NCBI GenBank assembly: GCA_903930145.1
Contig: CAIYXP010000191.1
Coordinates: 62,001 to 126,000 of the forward strand
From: an uncultured Methylococcaceae bacterium
Lineage (GTDB): Bacteria; Pseudomonadota; Gammaproteobacteria; Methylococcales; Methylococcaceae
Length of the DNA stretch: 64,000 nucleotides
Reading direction: 5' to 3'
Shown here piece after piece: positions 7,190 to 57,252 of this stretch. The notes beneath the pieces are model-generated. The model saw only the letters and a program-made list of their open reading frames with translations. It was not told the DNA's origin and made no database searches. The number at the start of each line of letters is the position of its first letter. Positions within the stretch are counted from its first letter, which is position 1. Position numbers and translations under genes: made by a program.

Positions 7190-7786
7190 CTAGTCAACTT
7201 CTAACTCGAAGGCGAAACTGTCAGGATGGTGAAAATCCGGCTTGCCTTGGGGGTGTGCGTAGGCCCAATAGGACAGGTCGCCGGATTTCTGCCGGATGAC
7301 CGCCGACAATCCCAGATGCCAAGTACCCTCATTCGGCAAGCCTAGGCCGCCCAAGTTGGCGACGGATTCCAGTTCGAGCCAGCCAATATCGCGGCATACG
7401 GCAATTTTAACAGGTTCGCTTAAGTTCGCCATCGCCATGCCTTGCCGGTAACGGGTGAAAGCGTAGGCGGCCCATGCCGTGGACGGGGAGAAGTTGAATT
7501 CATAATAGCCACTGTCAAATACCGGCTCGGTTTTCAAAACCGAGCCGGTCTGCGGCAGTACGGTGATAAACACCTCGAAACAGGTGGTTTGCCAAAGCCC
7601 GTCGGCACGTTGCGGGGGGGCAACCGGCGGAATCGCCAAGGCATCAATGTCGCCCTCAAGCCGGTATTTCAAGGCAAGCCTGCTGCCTTCCCTCCCAGTC
7701 TGCACGGTGACACGATGGATGGCCGGGCAAGGCGTGGACGGGTGGCAGCTCAGGACGGCGATAGAAGGGGTGGAATAAAAGCTCAC
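7190..7786 (-). CDS. DOMON-like domain protein
   Basis: A 198-residue beta-rich protein. The pattern LWQTTCFEVFI, then GYYEFNFSPSTAWAAYAF, YRQGMA and a C-terminal HLGLSAVI / LSYWAYAHP followed by PDFHHPDSFAF is that of the DOMON-like family of proteobacterial and cyanobacterial proteins, related to carbohydrate- or haem-binding DOMON sandwiches. No signal peptide is seen, so it is probably cytoplasmic. Its ATG overlaps the stop of the upstream CHAT/MBL gene by four bases (ATGA, 7783-7786), a strong sign of co-translation. What it binds and how it relates to the CHAT protein are unknown. Confidence 0.7.
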   Translation of the reverse strand: MSFYSTPSIAVLSCHPSTPCPAIHRVTVQTGREGSRLALKYRLEGDIDALAIPPVAPPQRADGLWQTTCFEVFITVLPQTGSVLKTEPVFDSGYYEFNFSPSTAWAAYAFTRYRQGMAMANLSEPVKIAVCRDIGWLELESVANLGGLGLPNEGTWHLGLSAVIRQKSGDLSYWAYAHPQGKPDFHHPDSFAFELEVD

Positions 7787-10700
7787 AGCCGGACCAACAA
7801 ACCCGACTGACCCGCCTCCGGGTAAAACGCCTCATAGCCATATTTCTCCTGCAAGGCTTTTTGCGCCCAGACATTGTTCAAATCGGTGCGGAAGTTGAAA
7901 TGCAGTTTGGGGTGGTCGCCGCCGTATTTGATGATGCGGCCAATCGCTTCGCGGTCAGGATGGTTGAAATGGTCGCCATTGGTCGAAATCAGATAACGGC
8001 GGCAGTCGAGCAGCTTCATCAGCTCGATGTTCAGATTGTTCTGGCTGGCATGGTGGGAGACTTTGAAGGCATCGAGTTTGAGCTTGTCGGCCTTGCGCTG
8101 TTTGAGCAGTTTCTGGATGGAGGCGACCAGCAGCGGCGCATGGGCATCTGCGCCAAGCAGGATGCTCTTGCCCCGGTATTCGGCCAGTACGGCAATGCTG
8201 CTGCCGTTGGGTGCGGCGGCATCGGCTTTGAACGGTGCGTCGGCGAGTTTGTCCACATCGGTGGAAGTGGACGGGGTGGCGCGCAGGAATTGGGTGAAAT
8301 CGCTGGCTTTGCCCACCGTCAACCCTAGTTTTTCGATTTCCGCCTTCCATTTTTTCGCCAGTGTGGCGAGCTTGTCCTTAGTCGGCGAGAGCAGGGTCAG
8401 GCGCATTCCGCCAGGTAGTTCGCAAACCGGCAATTCGTCGCCGTCTAGCATGATCGGCCCGCCATCGCGCCACTGATTCCAAGGCAGTTTGTATTGTTGG
8501 ATCAGCGTCGAGAATATCTCGCCCTGTTTGGCCCCCATTTTGTCTGATGGCAGATGCTCCCAGCCATTGAACCAGACATCGGCAAAGCGCAATCCTAAGC
8601 TTTGGTCTTTGAAAAACGGGATTGCGCCGCCGATGTGGTCGGCATCGATGTGGCTCAAGATAAACAACTCGAAGTCGCGTTGATTGTCCGGTTGCAGCGC
8701 GACTCGCTGTTTTAGCCGGTCATAGGTGCTGTCGGTTCCGCAATCGATCAACACGCGGGAGGTCGTTTGGCCCTCGCCATATTGCAACCATAGGCAGTCG
8801 CCATGGCCGGCGGGCAGCATTTCGATGCTTGCAAACGCTTCCCCGGAACTGGCGTGTTCCACTATGTCCGGCTGGGTGGATGGCTTTTTCTGGGTCGCCG
8901 GCTTGGTGGCGGCGGACAGTTTGAGTTTGCCTTCTATCAGGCTGTGTTCTGCCGACTTGACAGGCTCAGGCCGGGATGGCGCTTCTGTTGCGGGTAGTGC
9001 GCGTCGGCTGGACTTGCGTTGGGTCAGTAGGGCGACGAGTTCATGGGCGGTTTCGACGATGCCGCCAGCACCGTCCCATGGTGACCTTTGCTCGCCATTC
9101 CACTCGGCAAGGCCGTCCACAAACGCTTGCTGTCCCCACCATTGCGTGTAGCGCTCGAATTGCTTGCGGGTGGAAGTGATGGGGAAGGCATCGCCGGTGG
9201 CAAACAAGTTGACCAGTTCCAAAACATGCGCTTTGGCTTGCTGTGCCGCGTTATCAGGGGTTTTGCGTGTACTGCCGAGCCGCAGCAGCCACAACTCCGC
9301 CAGACTGCCGTGGGCCCATGCCCTCTCGTCGGTTGACGGGTGGTCGAGATAGGCTTCTGCGGAGAGTTTGGCCGTTTCCCATGAGCCTTCTGGCATCGGC
9401 TTGCCCAACACGACATCCATCGTGAGCATTTGCACGACCAACCAGTGCAGTGTGGCCATGCGTTGCAAGGGCTTGCCTTCATTGACGAGGAAACCCCGTG
9501 CGGCTTGGCGGTAATCGGTTCTGGCTTGTTCCAAGTAATCGCAGCACAGCAACAAGCCGTTGCGGTATTCGGGGGAATCCGGCCCCAGTCCCACACATCG
9601 TGAGTATTCCGCCTGGGCAAGCCGTTTGTTGCCACTGGCCCGCAGTCCCAAGGACTCCGCCCGGTATTCGCCCTCCAAAGGCAGCTTGTCACAGGCGGAT
9701 CGAACCGTTTTGGCACGTTGTTCATGGCTTGCGCCGTCCACTATCGCATCCCCGTCACGCACGGCCAAGTCCACCCGCTCAAGGGCTGCGCTGATGGCAA
9801 TCTTGCTTTGATGATAGCGCACCGCTTCCAGTTGACTGTCCAGGTTGTCGGTTAAAGCCTCGTAGACCACTAGGCTCGCCCAATCGTGGACCGTCTCGGC
9901 AAGATGACCGTGCAAGTTGCTGCGGATGCGGTGTAGCAGTATCCAAGGGTTGTCCCCATTCATGAGCCCCCGGTACAGGGTGCGGATCAGCGAGACCGAA
10001 CCAGTTTTGGATAGCGGGAACTGCGATGCCACCACCAACGGGATGCCGGCTAGATGTAGCGCATGGGCCAGGCTGGCTCCGGGGACTATCACCGAGCCGG
10101 CATTGCCGCTGTCGCAAGTCGCCAGTGTCACCACGGTGGGCCGGTGAATCTTGTTCCCCACGATGCGGGCCAAGGCACAGGAGAGCCGGTCGCCGGAAAC
10201 CACGTCGGTGTCGCCTTCGGCGGTGCGCAACACCAACCCGTAGGACACGTCCTGGGCATTTTGCAGCGTGTCGCCGTGTGCCAAGATGTGGATGTGGGTG
10301 TATTGGTTCTCCGCGCATTCAGTGGCGACATCCTCGAAGCAGGCGTCTTTGATGATCGTCAGCCAGTCGCCGTATTGTTCGCGGCGGCCATCCTCCGATA
10401 GGCTAGGTGTTTCAGCGCCGGGGTAAAGGAAGGGTTGGATCGCCGCCAACAGCTCGGCGCGGTGTTCTTCAAACGGTATGTTGGCCGGACTGGGGTCGGT
10501 GGCGACGAATAGGATGCGCGGACGCACCGGCCAGAGGTTGCCCTCGGATGACACGTTGCGGCTGCGGCGGGTGATGCAGACCGGCACACTGGTCTGCAGG
10601 GCCAGCCAGCTTTCGGTCGAAGCATACGGGCCCATGGGCATTTTCGCCAGTTCAAACGGCAGCAGGGCGAGTTCCGAGGCCGACAGCATCAGGCGCAAAT

Positions 10701-11016
10701 GCACGAGGGTTTCCACCCCGCCATCGTGAAAGCTCAAGGCCCCCGGTAGGCTGGGGACCGAACCGAGTATCTTCGCCATGTCCATGCCGATGTCGCGCAG
10801 CACCGCCAGACGCTCCTTGTCCGCGCCGTCGTCGTAGCGCATCGCGGTCATGCGGCGCATGAATGTCGCATGTTCGTAAGGCAGGTTGACGACCCCCGCC
10901 CCGTTGCTGCCACAGATGCCGAGGTAAGGCGTCAACGGCGACAGCAATTGGTTGTGCGGCGGGCCGGAGCGTAGCAATTCGACGGTGACGGTGCGAATCT
11001 GGATGCTGTTGTTCAT
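7783..11016 (-). CDS. CHAT caspase-like protease fused to a ComEC-type metallo-beta-lactamase domain (1077 aa)
   Basis: Residues about 160-380 form a CHAT (caspase HetF-associated with TPR) peptidase domain. HIHILAHGDT contains the likely catalytic His247 and TLATCDSGNAGSV the catalytic Cys301, followed by PLVVASQFPLS. Residues about 400-670 are alpha-helical and TPR-like without clear repeats. A low-complexity linker (about 670-725) leads to a metallo-beta-lactamase fold: EMLPAGHGDCLWLQYG, VLIDCGTDS, the metal motif SHIDADHIGG (788-797), LLGADAH and KVSHHASQNN. These resemble the hydrolase domain of ComEC/Rec2. The start ATG is behind GGTGAG. Two potentially toxic activities, a protease and a phosphodiesterase or nuclease, in one chain suggest a conflict or defence effector. 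The DOMON-like partner follows with an ATGA overlap. No sensor or adaptor gene is adjacent. Confidence 0.85.
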   Translation of the reverse strand: MNNSIQIRTVTVELLRSGPPHNQLLSPLTPYLGICGSNGAGVVNLPYEHATFMRRMTAMRYDDGADKERLAVLRDIGMDMAKILGSVPSLPGALSFHDGGVETLVHLRLMLSASELALLPFELAKMPMGPYASTESWLALQTSVPVCITRRSRNVSSEGNLWPVRPRILFVATDPSPANIPFEEHRAELLAAIQPFLYPGAETPSLSEDGRREQYGDWLTIIKDACFEDVATECAENQYTHIHILAHGDTLQNAQDVSYGLVLRTAEGDTDVVSGDRLSCALARIVGNKIHRPTVVTLATCDSGNAGSVIVPGASLAHALHLAGIPLVVASQFPLSKTGSVSLIRTLYRGLMNGDNPWILLHRIRSNLHGHLAETVHDWASLVVYEALTDNLDSQLEAVRYHQSKIAISAALERVDLAVRDGDAIVDGASHEQRAKTVRSACDKLPLEGEYRAESLGLRASGNKRLAQAEYSRCVGLGPDSPEYRNGLLLCCDYLEQARTDYRQAARGFLVNEGKPLQRMATLHWLVVQMLTMDVVLGKPMPEGSWETAKLSAEAYLDHPSTDERAWAHGSLAELWLLRLGSTRKTPDNAAQQAKAHVLELVNLFATGDAFPITSTRKQFERYTQWWGQQAFVDGLAEWNGEQRSPWDGAGGIVETAHELVALLTQRKSSRRALPATEAPSRPEPVKSAEHSLIEGKLKLSAATKPATQKKPSTQPDIVEHASSGEAFASIEMLPAGHGDCLWLQYGEGQTTSRVLIDCGTDSTYDRLKQRVALQPDNQRDFELFILSHIDADHIGGAIPFFKDQSLGLRFADVWFNGWEHLPSDKMGAKQGEIFSTLIQQYKLPWNQWRDGGPIMLDGDELPVCELPGGMRLTLLSPTKDKLATLAKKWKAEIEKLGLTVGKASDFTQFLRATPSTSTDVDKLADAPFKADAAAPNGSSIAVLAEYRGKSILLGADAHAPLLVASIQKLLKQRKADKLKLDAFKVSHHASQNNLNIELMKLLDCRRYLISTNGDHFNHPDREAIGRIIKYGGDHPKLHFNFRTDLNNVWAQKALQEKYGYEAFYPEAGQSGLLVRL

Positions 11017-13492: not shown

Positions 13493-14317
13493 ATGACTAT
13501 GCAAGAAGAGGACGGTTATACGATACGGCAGTTGCGCGAACTTGAGTATCACCGGGATCATGCCAAAAAGCACCGCCATCTTGCGGAGCAGCCGACTAAC
13601 TACGAAGTCGTTTTTTCCGATGCCCGCCGTTGGTGGAACCCTTACTGGGCGCTGTATTCGTACCTTCGGGGTTTGGACCTGAAGGGGAAAAACGTCCTTG
13701 TCATTGGTTGTGGGTTTGGCGAAGATGCGTTGCGCGTGGCCAGGCTAGGGGGCAATGTCCATGCCTTCGACTTAAGCCCGGAATCCATTGAGATTGCCCG
13801 CGAACGTGCCGACAGGGATGCGCTCAGCATCGATTTTCAGGTGGCCCCGGCGGAGAAATTACCGTACCAAGACAGTCTGTTTGACGTGGTGCTTGCCCAT
13901 GATGTGCTGCATCATTGCGATGTGGTGCCGACTGTCGCTGAGATACGCCGTGTCATCAAAGCGGGTGGGCTGCTGGTGGTGAGCGAAGTGTATTCCCATA
14001 GCCTGACTGAAAATGTGCGCCGTTCCAAATTCGTCGAGCAGGTTCTGTACCCCCGAATGCAGCGGCTGATTTATGGTTCCCGCGAACCCTATATTACCGC
14101 CGACGAGCGCAAGATGAGCGAGGATGACATGCGTTTGGTCGAGGCTCCCATGTCAAAGGTGTTGCACCGGGCTTACTTCAATTTTCTGGTTCGTCGCTTG
14201 TTGCCGGACGCGGATTGGATCAGCAAAGCGGATCGCTGTTTCATGCGGGTTTTTCCTTGGTTGGGCCCGCTCATCGGCGGGCGTGTCCTGGTTGCCGGGA
14301 TCGTTGGCAAGGCTTAG
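13493..14317 (+). CDS. Class I SAM-dependent methyltransferase inserted in the MCE operon
   Basis: The core is clear: VLVIGCGFGEDALRVARLG (motif I), VHAFDLSPESIEIARERA, then VAPAEKLPYQDSLFDVVLAHDVLHH and a C-terminal helical region. It resembles Methyltransf_11/25 enzymes of the UbiE/ubiquinone type, but the acceptor is not evident. The gene lies between the ATP-binding subunit and the MCE protein gene, about 210 bp after the former and 39 bp before the latter, on the same strand. The ATG at 13493 (with an in-frame ATG at 13499) follows TTAGGGCAG. A lipid-modifying function linked to transport is possible, but it may equally be a passenger gene. Confidence 0.82.
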   Translation: MTMQEEDGYTIRQLRELEYHRDHAKKHRHLAEQPTNYEVVFSDARRWWNPYWALYSYLRGLDLKGKNVLVIGCGFGEDALRVARLGGNVHAFDLSPESIEIARERADRDALSIDFQVAPAEKLPYQDSLFDVVLAHDVLHHCDVVPTVAEIRRVIKAGGLLVVSEVYSHSLTENVRRSKFVEQVLYPRMQRLIYGSREPYITADERKMSEDDMRLVEAPMSKVLHRAYFNFLVRRLLPDADWISKADRCFMRVFPWLGPLIGGRVLVAGIVGKA

Positions 14318-16068: not shown

Positions 16069-16187
16069 GGGGTGAGAGCGGTGGTTTTTAGCCGCGATGG
16101 GTGCCCATTTTGAAGCGGGATGGCCGGTCGCGGATGGATGACTCTCCCTGCTGGCCCACGCTGCCGCTTCCCTGCGGCTCCGTTGTT

Positions 16188-16499
16188 TCAAACGTACAAG
16201 TATGAGGTCAAGCGGCTTCTCAGCTTGTTGGTGGCCTTGTTCGGGCCGCCCCGGCTGCGAAGCCCCGTCGCCATCAAGTATTCCAGCGGAATGGCGTTGC
16301 GCAAAAGATAAGACATTGGGCTTCTTTTTAGCTTGTTGGATATTTTATTCGGGCCGCCGCGGCTGCCTAGCCCGGTTGCCATAAAACGTTCCAACTTTTT
16401 GACATCCACGCCTGCTTCACCCGCTCCGTGGGAGCCACCTTGGCCGTGTTGCAAGCCAAACATGCTTGGGATGCCAACAGTCATTTGAGATTCAGTCAT
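16188..16499 (-). CDS. Small hypothetical protein with an internal 36-residue duplication
   Basis: A 103-residue frame on the minus strand with a good ribosome-binding site (GGGGAGA) seven bases before its ATG. The N-terminus is Gly/His-rich (GLQHGQGGSHGAGEAG). Two copies of a basic unit follow: LERFMATGLGSRGGPNK at 36-52 and LEYLMATGLRSRGGPNK at 72-88, each continuing into a matching NKL..S..SYL tail. The repeat period is 36 residues (108 bp), and the DNA copies have diverged at synonymous positions, which supports protein-level selection. No homologous family is recognised. It could be a peptide precursor or a nucleic-acid-binding peptide, but no modification or export gene is adjacent. A TATAAA-like -10 element lies about 125 bp upstream on the minus strand. 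Confidence 0.55.
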   Translation of the reverse strand: MTESQMTVGIPSMFGLQHGQGGSHGAGEAGVDVKKLERFMATGLGSRGGPNKISNKLKRSPMSYLLRNAIPLEYLMATGLRSRGGPNKATNKLRSRLTSYLYV

Positions 16500-17064
16500 A
16501 GCACATTCTCCCCAAAAACGGGTTTACAGGTTCCCGCAGTGAGCGGGTGTTTGGCAGGGGAGGGTATTGGCGTGGTCGCCCGCAAAAGCCTTTTGCCAAC
16601 CACCAACCGAAAACGTCCCCTACGGTTATTTTTATAGCAGAAAAACGAGCGAAGAAATAGATAGTTTGCAAAAAAAAGCTGAAAAAGTTTAATGTTTTAT
16701 CAAATACGCTTATAGATCATATAATCTGAGCATTATGCAGCTTGCTTGAATGGGCCGGTTTGCGTGTTTTGGCGGGTTGGAAACCATCCCCGCACCCGAT
16801 GCGCCCAGTGCAGTGGCAGGGTTTGGCCTTAATTCAACAGTATTGACCAAGGCAGCGGGCTACTTTGCGCTTAGCGTGGCGCAAACGTGCCATTCTGCTA
16901 GATCATAGCCAAAAACAAGCGTAACATTGACAGATAAGACGATGGGGCGGGTGCGCGGTGGCGGCAAGGGGGAGTCCCTTTTTGCCCCAGCGCGATTGCC
17001 CGTAACCCATGGCTTGAGACGGTATGTCCTTAAACCTTAATTTTCCCTAGGAGTGTGTGACCCG
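16500..17064. other. Long intergenic region
   Basis: About 565 bp without a supported gene. It contains the 5' leader of the minus-strand duplicated small protein, with a CCCGC/GCGGG hairpin near 16533-16547, then an AT-rich patch (16630-16740). A 19-bp sequence at 16827-16845 recurs at 22094-22112. AGGAG at 17048-17052 is the ribosome-binding site of the next gene. No RNA gene is recognised. Confidence 0.35.
16827..16845 (+). repeat. 19-bp direct repeat, copy 1
   Basis: CCTTAATTCAACAGTATTG occurs here and again, identically and in the same orientation, at 22094-22112. Both copies are intergenic. It may be the end of a small mobile or palindromic repeat element. Confidence 0.5.
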
Positions 17065-17514
17065 ATGAATGCAACTGCTGATGTCGCTGTTTACTACCAT
17101 GAAGGTATCCTTCCCTTGATGCCTTCCTTCCCCGATGGTGTCGAAGTCTATACGACGACCGACGTGCACAGCCTCGCGAGGGCTTTGGTGCGCTATACGG
17201 ATATTCTTAAAGGCAATTCCGACCCGACGAGTGTCGGTGATTTGATCCATGGCGGCAAACGCGGCCCCCGCGTCCACCATCCCGTGGTGTTGGACGTGCT
17301 GTGGCATTTCGCCTCGGTTGGCAAGAAGGATGTGCCGTATTGGCACGCCTATGTCGCCGCGTCCCTGGTCCATCACCGGGTAGTGCATGACCCCGAACAG
17401 CTTGCGCTGCTGGTTGGCCTGCCCATGCTGACCGACGGCTGTGACCGCAACTTCATGATTAATGTGTTGCAGCAACTGCCCGGCATCGACCTCAACAAGT
17501 TTGAGACATTCTAA
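17065..17514 (+). CDS. Hypothetical cytoplasmic protein
   Basis: About 149 residues, starting at the ATG at 17065 with AGGAG 12 bases upstream; a GTG at 17053 is in frame but would sit directly on the ribosome-binding site. The protein has no signal peptide or membrane segment. It contains a His-rich central part (LIHGGKRGPRVHHPVVLDVLWHF, VAASLVHHRVVHD) and ends in LPGIDLNKFETF. No family is recognised. The coding sequence has the normal composition of the region and is followed by a strong GC-rich hairpin, so it is a genuine monocistronic gene. Confidence 0.65.
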   Translation: MNATADVAVYYHEGILPLMPSFPDGVEVYTTTDVHSLARALVRYTDILKGNSDPTSVGDLIHGGKRGPRVHHPVVLDVLWHFASVGKKDVPYWHAYVAASLVHHRVVHDPEQLALLVGLPMLTDGCDRNFMINVLQQLPGIDLNKFETF

Positions 17515-17549: not shown

Positions 17550-17659
17550 ATTCTAGCTTACAGCGTTTGCCTACCCTACACTTAATCAAATTAAATAATA
17601 AATTCGAGATTTTTCTGCAATAATCGAGCTAGATTTAGACTCGTTACTTGAGAATCTCC

Positions 17660-19036
17660 ATGCTTATTGAATTCAAGGTTGCCAATTTTCGCTCTATCCG
17701 TGAGCAACAAACTCTCAGTTTAGTCGCCAGCAATGCCGACAAGTCCTTGAATGGTTGCGTGATTGAGCATCCGTTACCGGGGCTTGCGGGTTTGCGCTTC
17801 TTGAAAGGGGCGGCACTCTACGGGGCTAATGCGTCCGGCAAATCGAACGTGATTCAAGCCATTGGCTTTTTAAGGGATTGTGTTGTCAATTCAGCGACCA
17901 AACTGCAACCGGGCGATAAAACCGGGGCCGAGCCGTTTAAGCTGGATCGGGAATCTAAAGAAAAACCTTCCGAGTTTGAAATCACCTTTGTGGCCGATAT
18001 TACTAATCAGGCGGGGGAAATCCAAGCGACTCGGTTTGTCTTCGGCCTAGCAATAACACCGCAGCGAGTTATCGAGGAATACCTGGTGGCTTACCCTAAA
18101 GGCTTGCCACAAAAATGGTATCACCGCATTTATAACGAAACGGAAAAGGCTTATGAATGGGCGAAACCATCGGCCGGGTTTAAACGGGATAAGAGTCTTG
18201 AACAAAAAACCAAAGAAAATGCTTTATACCTATCGGTTGGCCCTCAGTTCAATCATCCACAACTGACTGTAATATTTAATTGGTTTAACTTACATTTGCG
18301 GTTAATCAGTTTAAGCCATGGTACTAATATTTCTTATGTGCATACCATTGAATTACTTAAAAATCCAGCACAGCGTGATCGGATTCTGAGTTTGCTAAAA
18401 AGTGCTGACATTGGTGTAGCGAATGCTAGTGCAAATGTCAAAGATATAGATCCAATCTTAGCCGAATTATTAATAATACACGATCAATTTAAACAAAGAA
18501 TCCAAGATGTTTATCCAAAAGCGAGGAGATTCAATTCAGCTTTTGATTCTCAGCCGTTTATTGAAGAAAAAAGTTTGACTGAAGAGAGTTATTCGGTTAA
18601 TTTAATGCATACTGTGGAAGGCATTGATCCAGTTCCCTTGGATTTCGACGATGAAGAATCTTCTGGAACGCGCCAATTTTTTGCTTTGATTGGTTTTTGG
18701 ATAGAAATACTTGAAGGCGGCCACACTGTTTTTATTGACGAGCTGGAAACCAGCCTACACCCGCTCCTAGTCAGAGAATTGTTAAGGCTGTTGCTATCGG
18801 AAACCCATAACCCCAAAGGCGCACAGATAATCTTCACCACGCATAATCCCGTATTGCTGGATACCACCTTATTCAGGCGCGACCAAATTTGGTTTACTGA
18901 AAAATCGCCCAACGGCGCGACCCAACTTTATCCACTTACGGATTATCAACCACGCAAAGACGAGGCACTCGCCAAGGGGTATCTAGCTGGACGTTATGGC
19001 GGTATACCTTTTATCCCGGAAGGGCTTAAATTATGA
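17660..19036 (+). CDS. RloA / AbiLi-like AAA-type ATPase
   Basis: An SMC/OLD-like ATPase of about 458 residues. FKVANFRSIREQQTLSL at the N-terminus is typical of AAA_15/AAA_21 proteins; Walker A is ALYGANASGKSNVIQA; SGTRQFFALIGFWIEIL is the signature-like segment; Walker B is TVFIDELETSLHP, followed by IIFTTHNPVLLD. The start at ATG 17660 is preferred over the in-frame TTG at 17648. The stop overlaps the rloB start by four bases (ATGA). In Lactococcus the equivalent pair AbiLi/AbiLii causes abortive phage infection, and rloAB genes lie in restriction loci of Campylobacter. An anti-phage role is therefore inferred. Confidence 0.88.
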   Translation: MLIEFKVANFRSIREQQTLSLVASNADKSLNGCVIEHPLPGLAGLRFLKGAALYGANASGKSNVIQAIGFLRDCVVNSATKLQPGDKTGAEPFKLDRESKEKPSEFEITFVADITNQAGEIQATRFVFGLAITPQRVIEEYLVAYPKGLPQKWYHRIYNETEKAYEWAKPSAGFKRDKSLEQKTKENALYLSVGPQFNHPQLTVIFNWFNLHLRLISLSHGTNISYVHTIELLKNPAQRDRILSLLKSADIGVANASANVKDIDPILAELLIIHDQFKQRIQDVYPKARRFNSAFDSQPFIEEKSLTEESYSVNLMHTVEGIDPVPLDFDDEESSGTRQFFALIGFWIEILEGGHTVFIDELETSLHPLLVRELLRLLLSETHNPKGAQIIFTTHNPVLLDTTLFRRDQIWFTEKSPNGATQLYPLTDYQPRKDEALAKGYLAGRYGGIPFIPEGLKL

Positions 19037-19713
19037 GGACGACTAGGTCGTTTAATCGTAATGTCAAAACCTATCAGCGCGATAAACCTCAGCAACGGGC
19101 CACAGGCCGGACTTTTCTGATTGTCACCGAAGGGGAAAAAACCGAGCCGCACTATTTGAAAGCCTTGCGGGATCAACTCCAGTTGAAATCCGCTGATGTG
19201 GAAATCGTCCATCCCAAAGGCACCGACCCGTTAAGTTTGACACAGCGAGCCAATGCACTACGCGAAAACCGGAAAGTGAAAGCCAAAAATGGTTTTGCCG
19301 TTGAGTATGACGAAGTGTGGGTAGTGCTTGATTTGGAAACAGCCAACCATCCGCATCGGAAAAAAGCCGAACAGGCGCAGTCATCGAAAGAACTTTTCGG
19401 TATCCTGTTCGCCTACTCAGACCCAAGTTTTGAATATTGGCTCCTGTTGCATGAGGAATATACCACGTCAAATTTTGCTGATAGTGCGGCAGTGGAAAAA
19501 CGCTTCAAATCGATTCATACTGATTACACTAAAGGTAACTGGAAACCGACCCAAGCGTTTCTCTTGAAATTACCAACGGCTATCGCTCATGCCGAGCGAT
19601 GCCGCCAATTTCATGAGGAATCGGGCGGTGATGGCAATCCCTCGACTTGTATGGATAAACTTGCACGACACTTGAACGAAGCAGCTAACCCGTGTCATCG
19701 AATCATCCAGTGA
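19033..19713 (+). CDS. RloB / AbiLii-like protein
   Basis: 226 residues. The N-terminal GRTFLIVTEGEKTEPHYLKAL is the hallmark of RloB family proteins and contains the conserved glutamate of a Toprim-like fold. DEVWVVLDLETANHPHRKK supplies the second acidic motif, here D-L-E rather than the usual D-x-D, and DPSFEYWLLLH is the third conserved block. RloB is thought to be the effector (putative nuclease) acting with the ATPase. Its ATG overlaps the ATPase stop (ATGA), so the two proteins should be made together. The gene is followed by a spacer of about 117 bp and a zinc-finger protein gene. Confidence 0.87.
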   Translation: MRTTRSFNRNVKTYQRDKPQQRATGRTFLIVTEGEKTEPHYLKALRDQLQLKSADVEIVHPKGTDPLSLTQRANALRENRKVKAKNGFAVEYDEVWVVLDLETANHPHRKKAEQAQSSKELFGILFAYSDPSFEYWLLLHEEYTTSNFADSAAVEKRFKSIHTDYTKGNWKPTQAFLLKLPTAIAHAERCRQFHEESGGDGNPSTCMDKLARHLNEAANPCHRIIQ

Positions 19714-20600: not shown

Positions 20601-21404
20601 ATGTACGCTGAACGACAAGATACTGTAAAGATTTCCGCAAAACGCATGTTGCTGACCACCGCCCTGTCAATGCTGGGCGTTGTGCAAGCACCGCAGACGG
20701 TTGCGGCGGAGCCACAGCCTGCCCCCGCCCCGGTCATCGAACAGCAGGCGCTGGATCATCTGAAAGCCATGAGCGACAAGCTGACCGCTGCCAAGGCGTT
20801 TACTTACCGCTCCCGCAGCACCATTGAAGTCCCTGCCAAAACCGGGCAGTACCTGACTCATTTCATCGAGTCCGATGTCGCCTTGGAGCGGCCAAATAAA
20901 TTGCGCTCGAAGGTGAGTGGCGATTTGCCGCACTACCAGTTTTATTACGACGGTTCCACGGTTTCGGCCTTGGATATTGAAAAGAACCTGTATGCCATAG
21001 CCAAAGCACCGGGGACAATTGACGAGATGCTACCCTTCGTGATGGAAAAGGCTGGCATAGACTTCCCGGCGGCGGATTTTCTGCTAGGCAATCCCTATGC
21101 CGAATTGACCAAGGGCTTGACCCATGCCATTGCGGTCGGTCCTGTGAAGGTGAACGGTGTGCCAAGCGAGCATTATGCTTATATGAGCCCGGCGGTGAAT
21201 TGGGAAGTCTGGATCGATGCCAATTCGCTGCCCCGGCGGCTGGCGGTGACCCACAAGTCCGTCGACAATTTCCCGCGTTTCCAAGTCGAGTTTCTGGATT
21301 GGAATCTAAATCCTAAGCTGAGCGGCAGTGAATTTGTGTTGAAGAAACCTCAAGGTGCGAAAGAGGTCGAGTTTGGCGCGAAGATGGAAAACCCGCCCCA
21401 ATAG
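20601..21404 (+). CDS. Exported DUF2092 protein (LolA-like fold)
   Basis: A signal peptide (LLTTALSMLGVVQAPQTVAAE) precedes a full-length DUF2092 domain: ALDHLKAMSDKLTAAKAFTYR, then VALERPNKLRSKV, FYYDGSTVSALDIEKNLYA, GVPSEHYAYMSPAVNWEVWID and PRRLAVTHKSVDNFPRFQVEF. Proteins of this family are periplasmic and share the LolA/LolB-like lipoprotein-binding half-barrel. They are often encoded beside Gly-rich repeat lipoproteins such as the one that follows here. The ATG at 20601 follows AAGAGGATCG. The real function is not known. Confidence 0.82.
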   Translation: MYAERQDTVKISAKRMLLTTALSMLGVVQAPQTVAAEPQPAPAPVIEQQALDHLKAMSDKLTAAKAFTYRSRSTIEVPAKTGQYLTHFIESDVALERPNKLRSKVSGDLPHYQFYYDGSTVSALDIEKNLYAIAKAPGTIDEMLPFVMEKAGIDFPAADFLLGNPYAELTKGLTHAIAVGPVKVNGVPSEHYAYMSPAVNWEVWIDANSLPRRLAVTHKSVDNFPRFQVEFLDWNLNPKLSGSEFVLKKPQGAKEVEFGAKMENPPQ

Positions 21405-21441
21405 TGTCATGGTCAATGCAATGCAGCTAGTGAGGTCTTTT

Positions 21442-21912
21442 ATGTGTGTAAAATCTTGGGGTTTATGTGTGCCGGCCTTGTTGGGTCTGGTTTGGTTGGC
21501 GGGCGGTTGTGCGCCAAAACCGCCGCCTACAACGGTTGTTTATGGTGGTTACGGCGGCACGGCGGTATACGCCCACCCCGCGCCCTATTACGGTAGCGTA
21601 GCCGTGTATGGCCATCCTCCCGCGCCTTATTATGGCGGTGCGGCGATGTATGGTTCATCAGGCTATGCGCACGGTGCTTATGGTGGCTCGGCGGCGTGGA
21701 ACAATGGCGTGGGTGTTGCCCATGGTGCCGACGGCGGTTCGGCGGCGTGGAACCACGGCACGGGCTATGCCGAGGGCGCTAACGGCGGCTCGGCGGCATG
21801 GAATCACGGAACGGGTTATGCCGAAGGCGCCCACGGCGGTTCGGCGGCATGGAATCATGGCACGGGCTATGTCGAAGGGCCGCATGGCGGTGGGGCGGCT
21901 TGGCATCGGTAA
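21442..21912 (+). CDS. Glycine-rich repeat lipoprotein
   Basis: The best start is the ATG at 21442 behind GTGAGG; a longer frame overlaps the DUF2092 gene but has no ribosome-binding site. A lipoprotein signal ends in WLAGGCAPK. The mature part is Gly/Ala/Tyr-rich (VYGGYGGTAVYAHPAPYYG), then carries four to five tandem 17-residue repeats of the form GGSAAWNHGTGYAEGAH (51 bp in DNA, about 21680-21905). It is probably surface-exposed and anchored in the outer membrane. It is likely co-transcribed with the DUF2092 gene 37 bp upstream. No enzyme motif is present. Confidence 0.75.
   Translation: MCVKSWGLCVPALLGLVWLAGGCAPKPPPTTVVYGGYGGTAVYAHPAPYYGSVAVYGHPPAPYYGGAAMYGSSGYAHGAYGGSAAWNNGVGVAHGADGGSAAWNHGTGYAEGANGGSAAWNHGTGYAEGAHGGSAAWNHGTGYVEGPHGGGAAWHR
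21680..21905 (+). repeat. 51-bp tandem coding repeats
   Basis: Four to five copies of a 51-bp unit encode the GGSAAW(N)HGTGYAEGA repeats of the lipoprotein. The copies at 21790-21900 are the most alike, which suggests recent expansion by slippage or recombination. Confidence 0.7.
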
Positions 21913-40839: not shown

Positions 40840-41053
40840 TAAAACCATTAAGGCGAACCCGCCAAACCGTGGGCAGTGGGGAAAATGAGAATTGCTGCCA
40901 CGCATCGGATATAAGCGATGAAAAGATTCAGACGGGCGAATTAAATAGTGACACAATCCATATAAAAACAGTAAGATTAAAAAGATTGCAATCTTTGTGA
41001 TGGGCAATTCCTGACTGCCTTATAACCATTCCAATCCCCGATAGGAGATGCCA

Positions 41054-42812: not shown

Positions 42813-42972
42813 TGCCTCTAAGCAAAGTCACTCAATTTTTACTTCATTTTGCATATCCAAGCATTGCATCATGCGTAGTGTCAATTATGATATTATTGCA
42901 ACAAACTATGCCAATCTTACAACAAAAAAGCTTAGCAAGTTTTAACCATCAATGATAATTAAGGATACATTA

Positions 42973-44055
42973 ATGAAAGTTAAACCTCATGTTTTACCCC
43001 TATTAGGGTTGGGTATAGCCGCCTTGGTTACGATGCCTGCCTCAGTGAATGCAGCCTCTTCCCAGGCCAAAGGCAAAACCCAATCGCATTCGACTAAAAA
43101 ATCAACCCAGCCCGCTCAACCCACTTACCCATCCGTCCAACCCACGGCGCAGCCCACCTATGCGCCACGTCCGACCGTGGATCCGGTTGCTGCCGCGCCG
43201 GTTGAACGCAATTACACCCTAGGCGAAGTGATTTCCGAATCGGTGACGGGCGATGTTTACGCTGACCCGTCCAGATGGGAGGCACTCACGTTCCGGCAAT
43301 TGTTCACCAAGGGTTGGGACAAGCCTTGGGTCAGCCCACCGACCGGCGGCGGTGGCGCCCCAAGAATGGGTTGGTTGAATGCCTATGACGGTGTCTTCTA
43401 TCGGCTAAGCCTAGGCATCTTTAGTTGGGCGCATGGGCCGGGTAGCTACAGCGATTCTTACGCTGGCACTTTGAGCAGCTACACCCCGCTGAGCGAGCGC
43501 TTTCAAATCCGCACCGACATCGGCTTGGCCTCCAACCGTGACCAGACCAATTTCGCGGATTTCATCATCACGCCGCGAATCTTGCTCTCCGAAAGCAAGG
43601 AACAGACCCAATCGCTAGACATCGCCTTCCGCACCCCCACCGGCAATAGTTCCAACGGTCAGGGTTATGCCTCCATCAACCCGACCTACAACTTCTGGAC
43701 CAACTATTGGAAGGGCTTGGTGATTCGAGGTGGAGCCGGGTTCACCATCCCCTACGCGGGTGAGATTGCCAATGCAGGCGCACGTTCGACCTTCAACGCC
43801 AATTTGGCGGCTGGCTGGTACTTTACCGACCACGATGCCGCACCGTTTGGCGACTTGGTCATCTATGTGGCAAACAACCTGACCCAAGCCATCGACAACC
43901 GTGGGCCTAACAGCACGACGACCTTCTCGATGGGTCCGGGTTTTCGTGACCACTTGGGCGGTAACTGGTATTTACTGGGCGCAGTCGATATAGGGGTCAC
44001 CAACCCGAAGCCGTATGACTATCAGGTGTCTGGCGCAATCATGAAAGTGTATTAA
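42973..44055 (+). CDS. Outer-membrane beta-barrel protein, paralogue A
   Basis: About 360 residues from ATG 42973 (after TAAGGATAC). A signal peptide (VLPLLGLGIAALVTMPASVNA) and a low-complexity Thr/Pro/Ala-rich linker (about 30-70) lead to a conserved block (LGEVISESVTGDVYADPSRW, then WEALTFRQLFTKGWDKPWV). A beta-rich barrel follows and ends in aromatic strands (AIMKVY). It is nearly identical over its last 280 residues to the gene at 57252. The sequence does not match a characterised family; the shape suggests an outer-membrane channel. It sits directly downstream of sulfatase 1. Confidence 0.72.
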   Translation: MKVKPHVLPLLGLGIAALVTMPASVNAASSQAKGKTQSHSTKKSTQPAQPTYPSVQPTAQPTYAPRPTVDPVAAAPVERNYTLGEVISESVTGDVYADPSRWEALTFRQLFTKGWDKPWVSPPTGGGGAPRMGWLNAYDGVFYRLSLGIFSWAHGPGSYSDSYAGTLSSYTPLSERFQIRTDIGLASNRDQTNFADFIITPRILLSESKEQTQSLDIAFRTPTGNSSNGQGYASINPTYNFWTNYWKGLVIRGGAGFTIPYAGEIANAGARSTFNANLAAGWYFTDHDAAPFGDLVIYVANNLTQAIDNRGPNSTTTFSMGPGFRDHLGGNWYLLGAVDIGVTNPKPYDYQVSGAIMKVY

Positions 44056-51460: not shown

Positions 51461-52645
51461 ATGAAAGCCAATCCGGGCGGTCAAATTGATCTGCGTGAAG
51501 TCGTCGGTCGCGATGAGGTCATAGAACAAATTTGGGACACGATAGCCCAGCAATCGATCCGCATGAATGCCGAGCGTCGCATCGGCAAGACGACCATCAT
51601 CAAAAAACTCTGTGCCGAACCGCGTAGCGGTTGGGTGCCGATTTTTCAAGACCTTGAGCAGTATCACACCGCTTTGGAGTTTGCCGAAGCGGTCTATGGC
51701 GAGGTTGATCGGTTTCTTTCCAAGTGGAAACGGACGGCCCATCGGACAAAGAAATTTCTTGAATCGATTGGCGGAACCGAAATCGGCGGCAAGCTTAAAC
51801 TGCCCAAATTTGACAGAAACGCCCCTTGGAAGGAGATTCTGACCAAATCAATTGAAGATTTGGTCGAAGAACGGGACAAACATGACGAGCGTCCGCTATT
51901 CCTATGGGACGAAGTGCCGTACATGTTGGCAAGCATCAGTACCCGAGATGGCGAGCGGGTGGCGATGGAAGTGCTAGATACGCTGAGGGCGTTACGCCAA
52001 GACCAAGGCGACAAGGGGCTGCGGATGATTCTCACCGGCTCCATCGGCATCCATCATGTCATCCATAGCCTCAAGCGCCAAAACTACGCCAATTCTCCGT
52101 TGAATGACACCTTTCCCCTGGAAATCCTGCCACTGGCTCAAGCCCACGCCCGTGAGTTAGCCGCGAAATTGGTCGCTGGCGAAAACATCCCCACGGGGAC
52201 ACCGGATGAACTCGCAGACAGCATCGCCCATATTGCGGATGGCTTTCCGTTTTATATCCATCATATTGTCAAGGCCATCAAGTTGAGCGGACGGGTGGCA
52301 AGCCCGGAACTCGTTGAGGAAATCGTCTCCGGTCAGTTGTTGGATGCCAATGACCCTTGGGAATTGAACCACTACCGTGAACGCATCCCGGTTTACTACG
52401 GCAAAGAAGATGAAGCCGCCGTGTTGGGCATCTTGGATGGTGTTGCCGTTCGGGATGCGCCAGTCTCCATCAGCGATTTGCTGACTGAACTGAAGAACAT
52501 GGGGCTACTCTCCGACCGTGAACACTTGATAACGCTGCTCCGGCTGGTAGAGCAAGACCATTACCTGTCACGCGACACACAAGGCCATTACCAATTTCGG
52601 TTTGCGTTGCTTAAGCGCTGGTGGATACTGTCGCGTGGGCTTTAA
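51461..52645 (+). CDS. P-loop ATPase (archaeal-ATPase-like), first gene of a two-gene system
   Basis: 394 residues. REVVGRDEVIEQIWDTI opens an ATPase domain; the P-loop is atypical, NAERRIGKTTIIKKL, compare the GPRRVGKTSL of archaeal-type ATPases, with the first glycine replaced. RPLFLWDEVPYMLA is Walker B, MILTGSIGIHH is sensor-like and a C-terminal helical or winged-helix part (VSISDLLTELKNMGLL) follows. The protein has no membrane segment. The second gene starts 11 bp after its stop, which supports an operon. ATPases of this kind often act as regulators or switch proteins in conflict systems. The function here is unknown. Confidence 0.78.
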   Translation: MKANPGGQIDLREVVGRDEVIEQIWDTIAQQSIRMNAERRIGKTTIIKKLCAEPRSGWVPIFQDLEQYHTALEFAEAVYGEVDRFLSKWKRTAHRTKKFLESIGGTEIGGKLKLPKFDRNAPWKEILTKSIEDLVEERDKHDERPLFLWDEVPYMLASISTRDGERVAMEVLDTLRALRQDQGDKGLRMILTGSIGIHHVIHSLKRQNYANSPLNDTFPLEILPLAQAHARELAAKLVAGENIPTGTPDELADSIAHIADGFPFYIHHIVKAIKLSGRVASPELVEEIVSGQLLDANDPWELNHYRERIPVYYGKEDEAAVLGILDGVAVRDAPVSISDLLTELKNMGLLSDREHLITLLRLVEQDHYLSRDTQGHYQFRFALLKRWWILSRGL

Positions 52646-52656
52646 GGGAATTTCAA

Positions 52657-55600
52657 ATGAATGACCGTAACTTTCTTTCCGTCTTCACTCCTAGCCGTAC
52701 CCCGCCGGAAGACCTCGAAGCCATCTTCGTGCAACGCCAATTGATGTTGGCCGATGCCGTGGAGCGGGTGCGCGAAAGCGTGACCACCGGCAACAAGCAT
52801 CATCTGTTGTTCGTCGGACCGCGTGGCACGGGCAAAACCCATCTAGTCACCTTGCTCGTTCATCGTCTCAGCCTAGACATGGACATCCAAGACAGGCTGG
52901 CTATCGCTTGGCTCAACGAGGACGAAACCAGTACCACGCTATTGGAATTTCTGCGGCGGATTTACCTAGCGCTGAACAAGCGTTATCCAGACAGCTACAG
53001 CCTCGTAGCCTTGGAGCCGATTTATGACCTGGATTCAGACACGGCGGAAAGGCGGCTAGGGAATCTGCTGTTGGAACACTTGCAAGACCGCACTTTGTTG
53101 GTGGTGGTGGAAAACTTGGATGCCTTGTTTGAAGGCTTGGGCGAACCCGGTCAACAACGGTTACGGGCTTTCATCCAAGAAAACCCGGTGTTGTGCATCG
53201 TCGCCACGGCACAGCGGCTAGTGGATGACATCAGCAAGCGCAAGAGTGTTTTTTTTGGGTTCTTTCAAACCGAATCACTAGTGACGCTATCCGTCGATGA
53301 AGCCGCCGAAATGCTGGGCAAGATTGCCATTCTAAGAAAGCAAGCGGACGCGGCGGCATTTCTTAGCACACCGACGGGCCGCTCACGGATTCAGGCTCTG
53401 CATCATTTGTCCGGTGGCAATCACCGCATTTATATCGTGCTGTCCCAGTTCATCACCCGCGACAGCATTGATGCCTTGGTCGGGCCGTTTGCCAAGATGA
53501 TTGACGAGATGACGCCTTATTATCAGGAGCGCATCCGCTGGCTACCGGCCCAACAGCGCAAGATCGTCGAATACCTCTGCACCTGTGAACGGCCCGTCCC
53601 GGTCAAAGACTTGGCTCGTCGCTTGTTCGCCACGCCGCAGACTATTTCCAGCCAATTGAAAGACTTGCGCGAGAAAGGCTATGTCTTATCCGCCCAACGC
53701 GGGCGCGAATCCCTGTACGAAATGGCCGAACCCTTGATGCGCCTGTGTGTGGAAGTCAAAGAAAACCAGACCCGCGAACCCATGCGCCTGTTGGTGGATT
53801 TTCTGAGGGTTTGGTATGACGACAGTGGGCTTTTTGCTCGATTGCAAAAAAGTGAAAAAGGAAGTTTGGATCATGCCTATTTACAAGCAGCAATGGATAA
53901 GAATGCCAAATTCGGCAACCTGCGCAAGCAATTATTGGTGGATGGGTTTAGGGCTGAGTTGAGAGAGGAACAGCATAAGCAATGGATGCCGTTGATAGAA
54001 TCGGCCGTTGAAGACTCTGAAGAATTGGCATATGCCATTGGTGAAAATGCGAAAGGCCATATTGAAGAAGCCATTGCTGCTTACTCTGCTGTAATACAAA
54101 TGCCGGATGCGCCAGTCAATGTTGTCGCAAGAGCGTTTCTCAATCGAGGCGTGGCCTACGGGCAACAGGGCGACAGCGAGAAGGAAATAGCCGACTATAC
54201 CGCCGTCATCAAACTGCCCAATGTAACCGTTGAGCTAATCGCAAAAGCGCTTATAAACCGGGGTATTACTTATGGAGAACTCGGCGACTACGAGAATGAG
54301 ATTGCCGACTATACCGCCGTCATCAATTTGCCCAATGCACCTGTTGGGCAAATCGTAGATGCGTTTTTCTATCGTGGTTTTAGTTATGGACAAATGGGCG
54401 ACAGCGAGAAGCAAATAGCCGACTACACCGCAGTCATCAATCTGCCCAACGTACCTGTTGAGGAAATCGCAAGAGCGCTTAACAATCGGGGTATTACTTA
54501 TGGACAACTCGGTGACAGCGAGAAGGAAATAGCCGACTACACCGCCGTCATTGATCTGCCCAATGCATCCAATGAGCAAATCGCAAAAGCGCTTAACAAC
54601 CAAGGGACTACTTATGGGCAACTTGGCGACTATGAGCATGCGATTGCCGACTACACTGCTGTCATTGATCTGCCCAACGTACCCGTTGAGCAAATCATAG
54701 ATGCGTTTTACAACCGGGGTTTTAGTTATGGACAACTCGGCGACCACGAGAAAGCGGTTACCGACTATACCGCCATCATCAATTTTCCCGATGCGCCTGC
54801 TGAGCAAATAGCGAATGCCCTCAATGGACGCAGTTGGGTTTATTCAGAAATTAGCGAACTTGAGAAAGCAATCGCTGACTACACTAGCTTCATCGAACTA
54901 CCAAATATGCCGATGGAAAAAATTATATTAGCACATTATTCTCGTGGAGTTGAACTGTTAAATCATGGTGAAATCGATAAATCTATCGAAGACTTCAACA
55001 CTGTTATCAACTCACCTAATACACCAGCGGAATATCTAGCTAGAACTTTAAGTTTTCGTGGTAGTGCCTATTTGCGTTTAAATCAACTGAATAATTCTGA
55101 GCAAGATTTTGAAGCGACTCTCAGATTAGTAGCTGATATACCAATTGAATTCCGTGTTGCATTTCATGTGGGAGCGCATATCGCTTTAGCTGAAATACGT
55201 ATTGCCACGGGTCTATGGGATTATGCCCTTTCCACCCTTGCTGAGGGGCTGAAGCAAGGCACCACCTACGACCCTCCATATTTCGGCGACTCAACCGACA
55301 TCCTCAAAGCCTTCTTCGACAGCGGCCTAGCTCCTGCCATCCGCCGTGAACGCGCCCGCCAACTGGCGCAAATCTATCAGGATTACAATGCCGTGCCGCA
55401 CTTGGGCGAGGCGCTGACCCGGCATGTCGGCAGTCTGTACCGCAACTTGGAAAACCTGCCAGCTTCGGACAATCTGGAACAATGGGCTTGCGCTTGGGAA
55501 GAAGCGGGCAAGGATATGCCCGCCTTCCGCTTGCCGCTGCGCATTTTCCGCACTGGCATCGATTTTCTCAAGACCGGCGGCAAAGACCGTGGTGTTTTGC

Positions 55601-55671
55601 TCGACCTCAAGCAAGAAGAACGCAGGATTCTGCAACAGGCATTGGGCTTGGATGCCGCTGATTCATCCTAG
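52657..55671 (+). CDS. STAND-type ATPase with HTH and tandem 38-residue TPR-like repeats, second gene of the pair
   Basis: 1004 residues from ATG 52657; a frame running back to 52621 overlaps the first gene. Walker A is LLFVGPRGTGKTHLVTLL (54-61), and LLVVVENLDALFEGLG is a Walker-B-like segment. A winged helix-turn-helix lies at about 305-370 (PVPVKDLARRLFATPQTISSQLKDLREKGYVL). From about residue 470 to 790 there are nine or more repeats of exactly 38 residues (consensus ADYTAVINLPNVPVEQIAKA-L..RG.TYGQLGD.EKEI). A further helical region of about 200 residues ends the protein. This is the ATPase-sensor design of STAND proteins: ATPase, regulatory wHTH, ligand-binding repeats. No effector domain is recognised, so the effector may be the partner or a hidden C-terminal domain. 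Confidence 0.82.
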   Translation: MNDRNFLSVFTPSRTPPEDLEAIFVQRQLMLADAVERVRESVTTGNKHHLLFVGPRGTGKTHLVTLLVHRLSLDMDIQDRLAIAWLNEDETSTTLLEFLRRIYLALNKRYPDSYSLVALEPIYDLDSDTAERRLGNLLLEHLQDRTLLVVVENLDALFEGLGEPGQQRLRAFIQENPVLCIVATAQRLVDDISKRKSVFFGFFQTESLVTLSVDEAAEMLGKIAILRKQADAAAFLSTPTGRSRIQALHHLSGGNHRIYIVLSQFITRDSIDALVGPFAKMIDEMTPYYQERIRWLPAQQRKIVEYLCTCERPVPVKDLARRLFATPQTISSQLKDLREKGYVLSAQRGRESLYEMAEPLMRLCVEVKENQTREPMRLLVDFLRVWYDDSGLFARLQKSEKGSLDHAYLQAAMDKNAKFGNLRKQLLVDGFRAELREEQHKQWMPLIESAVEDSEELAYAIGENAKGHIEEAIAAYSAVIQMPDAPVNVVARAFLNRGVAYGQQGDSEKEIADYTAVIKLPNVTVELIAKALINRGITYGELGDYENEIADYTAVINLPNAPVGQIVDAFFYRGFSYGQMGDSEKQIADYTAVINLPNVPVEEIARALNNRGITYGQLGDSEKEIADYTAVIDLPNASNEQIAKALNNQGTTYGQLGDYEHAIADYTAVIDLPNVPVEQIIDAFYNRGFSYGQLGDHEKAVTDYTAIINFPDAPAEQIANALNGRSWVYSEISELEKAIADYTSFIELPNMPMEKIILAHYSRGVELLNHGEIDKSIEDFNTVINSPNTPAEYLARTLSFRGSAYLRLNQLNNSEQDFEATLRLVADIPIEFRVAFHVGAHIALAEIRIATGLWDYALSTLAEGLKQGTTYDPPYFGDSTDILKAFFDSGLAPAIRRERARQLAQIYQDYNAVPHLGEALTRHVGSLYRNLENLPASDNLEQWACAWEEAGKDMPAFRLPLRIFRTGIDFLKTGGKDRGVLLDLKQEERRILQQALGLDAADSS
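54076..55101 (+). repeat. Tandem 114-bp coding repeats
   Basis: The Ala-Asp-Tyr or equivalent codons recur in register at 54076, 54190, 54304, 54418, 54532, 54646, 54760, 54874 and 54988, exactly 114 bp apart. The inner copies (54190-54760) are the most alike at DNA level. They encode the 38-residue repeats of the STAND-like protein. Because units are identical in length, unequal recombination could change their number. Confidence 0.9.
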
Positions 55672-57045: not shown

Positions 57046-57252
57046 ATGAGATTCATATTTGTCATTTGCCTTGCCGCCGCAGCAATACTTCCAGCCTGCT
57101 CCACTTCTGGTAGCGGTGGCGGGTTGTTGGATCCGGACTGCACGGCGGAAAAGGCGGCGAAAAGCGCCGCGATGAAGTCCACGGTTGGCGTGGGCGGACG
57201 CTGCACTCCAGCCGAAGCCGCCAAGGACACAGCAAAGCGGGCAGTGCAATAA
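57046..57252 (+). CDS. Small lipoprotein upstream of barrel gene B
   Basis: 68 residues. The signal peptide has a lipobox (LAAAAILPAC), followed by STSGSGGGLLDPDCTAEKAA, a short Lys/Ala-rich segment. A second Cys pair may form a disulfide. It ends in a stop that overlaps the start of barrel B (TAATG at 57250-57254), so the two are translationally coupled. No family is recognised. GGAAG precedes its ATG. Confidence 0.75.
   Translation: MRFIFVICLAAAAILPACSTSGSGGGLLDPDCTAEKAAKSAAMKSTVGVGGRCTPAEAAKDTAKRAVQ

Follow-up and report, generated by a model that had tools for sequence, protein, structure and literature searches.

A small basic protein family with a duplicated glycine-rich unit, so far restricted almost entirely to Methylococcaceae-type methanotrophs

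A short open reading frame that encodes an internally repeated, strongly basic protein raises two linked questions, namely whether it is a gene under constraint and, if so, what its repeated unit might do. The locus considered here lies in a 64,000-nucleotide stretch of DNA from an uncultured Methylococcaceae bacterium (the window, meaning the whole stretch that was analysed), and had been read from the letters alone as a small protein with an internally duplicated basic motif. In the ORF list the frame runs on the minus strand from an ATG at 16499 to a stop codon ending at 16188, and its 103 residues read MTESQMTVGIPSMFGLQHGQGGSHGAGEAGVDVKKLERFMATGLGSRGGPNKISNKLKRSPMSYLLRNAIPLEYLMATGLRSRGGPNKATNKLRSRLTSYLYV, with a very basic computed pI of 10.6; both the placement and the internal duplication given by that sequence-only reading are confirmed. 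The features of the locus are as follows.

16188..16499, minus strand: protein-coding gene for the two-unit basic protein of 103 aa, recognised from its open reading frame and from homologues under purifying selection
16305..16397, minus strand: unit 1, KLERFMATGLGSRGGPNKISNKLKRSPMSYL, which resembles the single-unit homologues more than unit 2 does
16197..16289, minus strand: unit 2, PLEYLMATGLRSRGGPNKATNKLRSRLTSYL, whose LRSRGG version is also present in three other two-unit proteins
16508..16513, minus strand: Shine-Dalgarno sequence GGGGAG, 8 nt before the ATG
16533..16547, minus strand: possible 5' UTR hairpin CCCGC/GCGGG, its stem also present in the relatives G002 and G003 with a different loop
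16631..16639, minus strand: TGCTATAAA, a probable promoter element of the extended -10 type, recognised by eye in the upstream alignment
16631..16740, minus strand: AT-rich upstream region, 28% GC against a window mean of 53%
16163..16178, minus strand: hairpin GCCGCAGGGAAGCGGC just after the stop codon, a family-wide element and not this gene's alone

The ribosome-binding site, which had been called strong, is a good one, and a GGAG stands ahead of the start codon in each of the six homologues of the upstream alignment. The TGnTATAAA of the probable promoter was seen by eye in three of the six aligned upstream regions (window, G002 and G003) and is absent from the promoter-scan listing; only 57 of 12778 sliding windows of equal size are as AT-rich as the promoter region. 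The 5' UTR region folds in a statistically unremarkable way (z -1.05). The gene is real and, judged from its sequence, looks expressed. The glycine-rich leader that had been proposed exists in the window protein and its nearest homologue; it is not a family-wide feature, and conservation among family members is weak over the N-terminal 30-35 residues.

The repeated unit is 31 residues long and occurs twice in the window protein at a spacing of 36 residues. The internal similarity is beyond chance, because the ungapped self-alignment of the protein scores 94 and the best of 2000 shuffled proteins scores 46. At the base level the repeat covers 70 nt at 76% identity, and 20 of 31 residues are identical between the two units; synonymous differences outnumber nonsynonymous ones about threefold (0.67 versus 0.227 per site), which bears out the earlier statement that the units are conserved as protein and differ at synonymous sites. 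That statement had come with the suggestion of searching for other repeat numbers, and these do exist: four of the six aligned proteins (94-103 aa) carry two units, and the remaining two (64 and 68 aa) carry one, after which they terminate directly. In a unit alignment of 11 rows and 10 distinct units, window unit 1 being entered twice, E3, A7, S12-R-G-G-P-N-K18, N21-K22 and Y30 (unit numbering) are invariant across all 10 distinct units. The six aligned proteins have pI values of 9.9-10.9, with K+R exceeding D+E in each; cysteine is missing from the two-unit proteins and occurs once in each single-unit protein.

Comparison of units among genomes bears on the age of the duplication. Unit 1 of the two-unit proteins shares 20-23 of 31 residues with the single-unit proteins and unit 2 shares 16-19, and the LRSRGG version of unit 2 recurs in all four two-unit proteins. 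The two-unit form appears to be old, because unit 1 agrees better with unit 1 of other genomes (24-29 of 31) than with its own unit 2 (18-21 of 31). Unit 2 of the copy designated L022, however, agrees with the other units 2 at 18-21 of 31 residues, scarcely better than the 19 of 31 that it has in common with its own unit 1. Most simply, the duplication would have happened once, before the four two-unit copies diverged.

The distribution of the gene is patchy. Protein searches covered the genome of the window together with 60 relatives (61 genomes), and profile searches covered 38 genomes of the family and 311 of the order, including those 38. Intact copies are present in five of the 38 family genomes, namely G000 (the window), G002, G003, G009 and G012, and a scan of public genome contigs added the intact copy L022, from a contig of a metagenome-assembled genome titled Betaproteobacteria, as well as a contig titled uncultured Methylococcaceae bacterium that agrees with the G002 contig in length and in the position of the match; L002, L021 and L023 are one and the same G002 contig. 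Left out of the counts were a borderline match in G029 (E 0.0098) and other weak profile hits, which span just a portion of the unit or, at the loci viewed (L049 and L051), fall within longer frames that are unrelated. In the order outside the family, the profile search of 311 genomes gave no match at E 0.01 or better; the window genome alone matched in a class sample of 369 genomes, and a phylum sample of 398 added only three weak partial hits (G1013, G1088 and G1131), which were not counted. Searches of viral contigs, phages and plasmids found no homologue, a Burkholderia plasmid (E 7) and four mycobacteriophage records (E 9) being matches at chance level. The L022 contig (7,466 bp) could be wrongly binned, since the 299 genomes around it, itself included, hold no second copy and one of the closest plasmid initiators comes from Candidatus Methylospira mobilis, a methanotroph. 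So far the family is restricted almost entirely to Methylococcaceae-type methanotrophs.

Even within the genus the gene is unevenly kept. Three of the seven same-genus genomes (G001, G004 and G005) have no match, and G006 retains at the syntenic place only a remnant, mainly of unit 2, with no start and with RGGP changed to RRGP. The sequence-only reading had staked itself against a lack of homologues joined to a frame-disrupted copy in close relatives; a truncated copy of this kind is indeed found in G006, and homologues exist nonetheless. Among these, the six pairs of two-unit proteins have dN/dS values of 0.16-0.32 (window-G002 0.22, window-G003 0.23, window-L022 0.32, G002-G003 0.16, G002-L022 0.17 and G003-L022 0.29), and pairs involving single-unit proteins range from 0.24 to 0.75, one pair being saturated and not computable. 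Substitutions at first, second and third codon positions number 23/14/46 for G002-G003 (p 5e-5), 32/18/45 for G002-L022 (p 0.003) and 24/20/38 for window-G003 (p 0.04); the 9/6/14 of window-G002 (p 0.18) are too few to tell. The gene changes place and gets lost, yet it is constrained where present.

These changes of place are apparent from the surroundings. In the window the gene is convergent to a pqiC-like lipoprotein gene, the last gene of an MCE/ABC transport cluster, and G002 has the same pqiC-like neighbour, which was not seen at the syntenic place in G006. In G003 a mechanosensitive-channel gene and a UDP-GlcNAc epimerase are found close to the gene; in G009 it is flanked by a zinc-ribbon protein on one side and a DnaK-like, DUF3731-containing protein on the other; in G012 it is next to a Mur ligase; and in L022 it stands between a resolvase and a phosphoribulokinase, on a contig that also encodes a TacA-like antitoxin and a plasmid initiator of the Rep3 type. 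No neighbour recurs among the settings of G000/G002, G003, G009, G012 and L022. A Pfam scan of 20 neighbours recognised neither a peptide-modifying enzyme nor a dedicated peptide exporter, and the window neighbours scanned in the same way, a subset of its ORFs, included no peptide-modifying enzyme.

One sequence does accompany the gene closely within the genus. GCCGCAGGGANGCGGC occurs once each in four of the seven genus genomes, always at the small basic gene or its remnant, and the 3' hairpin also follows the L022 copy; this looked like a control element bound to the gene, and its loop resembled the kind to which CsrA binds. The hairpin AGCCGCAGGGAMGCGGC (window 16163-16178; L053-L056 and L060-L062) is present at 11 places in nine of the 38 family genomes and in none of the 273 other genomes of the order, and a gene-specific role is rejected, as seven of these 11 places (in G031, G034, G015, G011 and G012) lie at unrelated genes. 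The 3' region folds no better than shuffled sequences (z 0.70). Several hairpin copies form part of more extended intergenic elements, behind which comes a tail of TTTCTTTGGTTAC type that these copies have in common.

Other genes of the window were recorded alongside. A methyltransferase gene (13493-14317, plus strand) lies within the MCE/ABC (MlaD/PqiC-like) cluster, which in G006 was seen without it. A gene pair at 17648-19713 (plus strand), 1.1 kb from the small gene, is probably an abortive-infection defence system: one member matches AbiLi (E 4e-93) and Pfam AAA_21 (E 5.1e-37), the other AbiLii (E 2.1e-21) and the RloB domain (E 2.7e-35). In the 1077-aa protein of 7783-11016 (minus strand), residues 102-384 form a CHAT protease domain (E 5.4e-24) and residues 730-1063, at the C-terminal end, a metallo-beta-lactamase-type domain matching the LmuA defence model (E 3.8e-72); such a fusion of protease and hydrolase looks unusual, and the protein is possibly one of defence. 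A 149-aa protein at 17053-17514 (plus strand, counted from the ATG at 17065) matches nothing in Pfam, NCBIfam or PADLOC; it is 92-94% identical in three other genus genomes and was not found in the remaining three. At 21355-21912 (plus strand) a 185-aa protein with no Pfam match ends in C-terminal repeats of type GGSAAWNHGTGYAEGA. A 1016-aa protein at 52621-55671 (plus strand) combines an AAA ATPase domain with a winged helix and with TPR repeats; another ATPase-like gene lies ahead of it at 51461. Two highly similar paralogues (42952-44055 and 57252-58358, both plus strand) each lie near genes, among those at 41048, 46670, 58492 and 62067, that are presumably sulfatase-like.

The small basic protein belongs to an undescribed family, unnamed so far. 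Pfam gave no family for the six full proteins or the 11 unit rows at E up to 10, Rfam gave no RNA family, and PADLOC gave none for the protein despite the nearby AbiLi/AbiLii pair. An NCBIfam fimbrial-subunit hit to one of the six proteins (E 0.016) and a single PHROGs hit (E 0.062) are taken as chance. Among solved structures the full profile has no match, and the matches to the unit profile are at chance level, the best being a collagenase (E 0.17). The AlphaFold model is weak (mean pLDDT 47.8, pTM 0.18) and suggests a protein mostly unstructured on its own, with a helix following directly on each of the two RGGP loops (at residues 52-59 and 88-101, pLDDT about 50). Within the open-licence PubMed Central papers searched, RGGPNK occurs in no paper, SRGGPN/RGGPN leads to a single unrelated paper, about peptides of snail proteins (PMC7912061), and the titles and abstract openings returned by general searches hold nothing on the family.

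What, then, might the unit do? We tentatively prefer to see a lineage-restricted, largely unstructured protein that would move horizontally and bind nucleic acid through a duplicated RGG-loop-plus-basic-helix unit, on the grounds that all members are basic, the R-G-G-P-N-K loop is invariant, a basic helix is predicted beside it and the unit is duplicated. Binding to DNA or RNA had already been suggested by the sequence-only reading; it is still a possible role and the one preferred here, while the sequence and structure searches above contain no match that shows it. The AT-rich promoter, and the setting of the gene in L022, next to a resolvase and with a Rep3 initiator nearby, count in its favour; against it, basic charge would also suit an antimicrobial peptide or a protein whose partners are acidic proteins. 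The working part would be the 31-residue unit, comprising a glycine-rich loop, SRGGPNK, then a basic predicted helix, xSNKLKR, and a conserved Ser-Tyr. The R-G-G-P-N loop would enter the groove and the lysines and arginines would contact the backbone, as in loop-plus-helix units of the MvaT/H-NS type. One unit is probably ancestral, an old internal duplication having given rise to a two-unit form that may bind more tightly through avidity or may bridge two sites. The AT-rich promoter of the gene is at most suggestive of AT-rich DNA as the target. That the family is a minimal nucleic-acid-binding unit, alone or in tandem, carried on mobile DNA among methanotrophs and silencing or bridging AT-rich DNA including its own promoter, is a doubtful extension.

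The comparison with MvaT is one of likeness and not of homology, and rests on a few residues described in PMC4466236: in MvaT the DNA minor groove is bound by a loosely similar arrangement, in which lysines 102, 105 and 108 come after loop2, KGGNH. In both cases a glycine-rich loop stands beside a basic helix, RGGPNKxSNKLK in the small protein. Unlike MvaT/H-NS, the small protein lacks the Q/RGR motif as well as any detectable H-NS/MvaT domain and shows no sign of a domain for oligomerisation, and its unit is duplicated within about 100 residues. Membership in that family is rejected: the Pfam search had no match, no MvaT or H-NS chain is among the solved-structure matches, and the units read SRGGPNK, which is neither the AT-hook-like Q/RGR nor KGGNH. 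An RGG box consists of several closely spaced RGG triplets, and with one RGG per 36 residues the protein does not qualify as an RGG-box RNA-binding protein.

The main rival to nucleic-acid binding is an adaptor in which the invariant SRGGPNKxSNK is a short linear motif docking on one cellular protein, its two copies raising avidity. Invariance of specific residues, not of charge alone, and the modelled lack of structure would suit such a role, but no conserved partner gene lies nearby and, across the genomes searched, the profile brought up no additional family that is clear, and we hold it unlikely. A secreted cationic antimicrobial peptide, bacteriocin or RiPP precursor is improbable. The protein is small, cationic and patchily distributed, with a plasmid-like contig in one case, and its one or two core-like units recall RiPPs with repeated cores. 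Modified peptides usually have a conserved leader and a variable core, however, and here the putative core is conserved and the N-terminus variable; the two-unit proteins have no cysteine, and no double-glycine leader register was recognised by eye. The sequence-only reading had named such a precursor as one option and had advised looking for linked maturation enzymes; no maturation, export or immunity gene was recognised among the 10 + 10 neighbours scanned, and no maturation enzyme was seen among these or the window neighbours scanned, although enzymes encoded elsewhere could conceivably serve. With neighbours that are not conserved and no such enzyme seen, the peptide-precursor idea is left unsupported.

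Two further readings carry far less weight. Translation arrest has some appeal, in that an invariant SRGGP lies in the C-terminal half of a small, patchy protein and R-G-G-P resembles the R-A-G-P and R-G-P-P arrest motifs; as set out in PMC12992588 and PMC10987492, small proteins of patchy distribution have RAPP-like motifs close to the C-terminus. SecM, ApcA and YwcI are arrest peptides of the RAPP/RAGP kind. The motif here is RGGP, however, not RAPP, RGPP, RAGP or RAPG, and RGGP is absent from the main texts of both papers and is not among the arrest motifs that they describe. We reject arrest as very improbable because the NK, NK and Y past the proline are as invariant as the residues before it, which stalling would not require, and because no downstream gene is conserved, the next window gene being convergent. 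That the gene is old and decaying, or that the region is non-coding and its open frame accidental, is disfavoured and scarcely credible: the truncated remnant and the three same-genus genomes lacking a match speak for it, but against it speak purifying selection, a GGAG before every start and the five homologues that, in addition to the window copy, are intact.

Like other orphan, lineage-restricted small proteins, this one is short, confined to few related genera, without a database family, and gained and lost; it differs in being strongly constrained, with seven consecutive residues invariant in all 10 units. It adds a well-constrained, so far unnamed family to the lineage-restricted small proteins of bacteria, and the natural comparison of single- and double-unit forms makes its motif easy to test. 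If the unit does bind DNA or RNA self-sufficiently, it would be a very small element of that kind. For methanotroph biology, the gene is a candidate regulator or mobile-element gene, which may move between hosts and take part in regulating or handling DNA or RNA.
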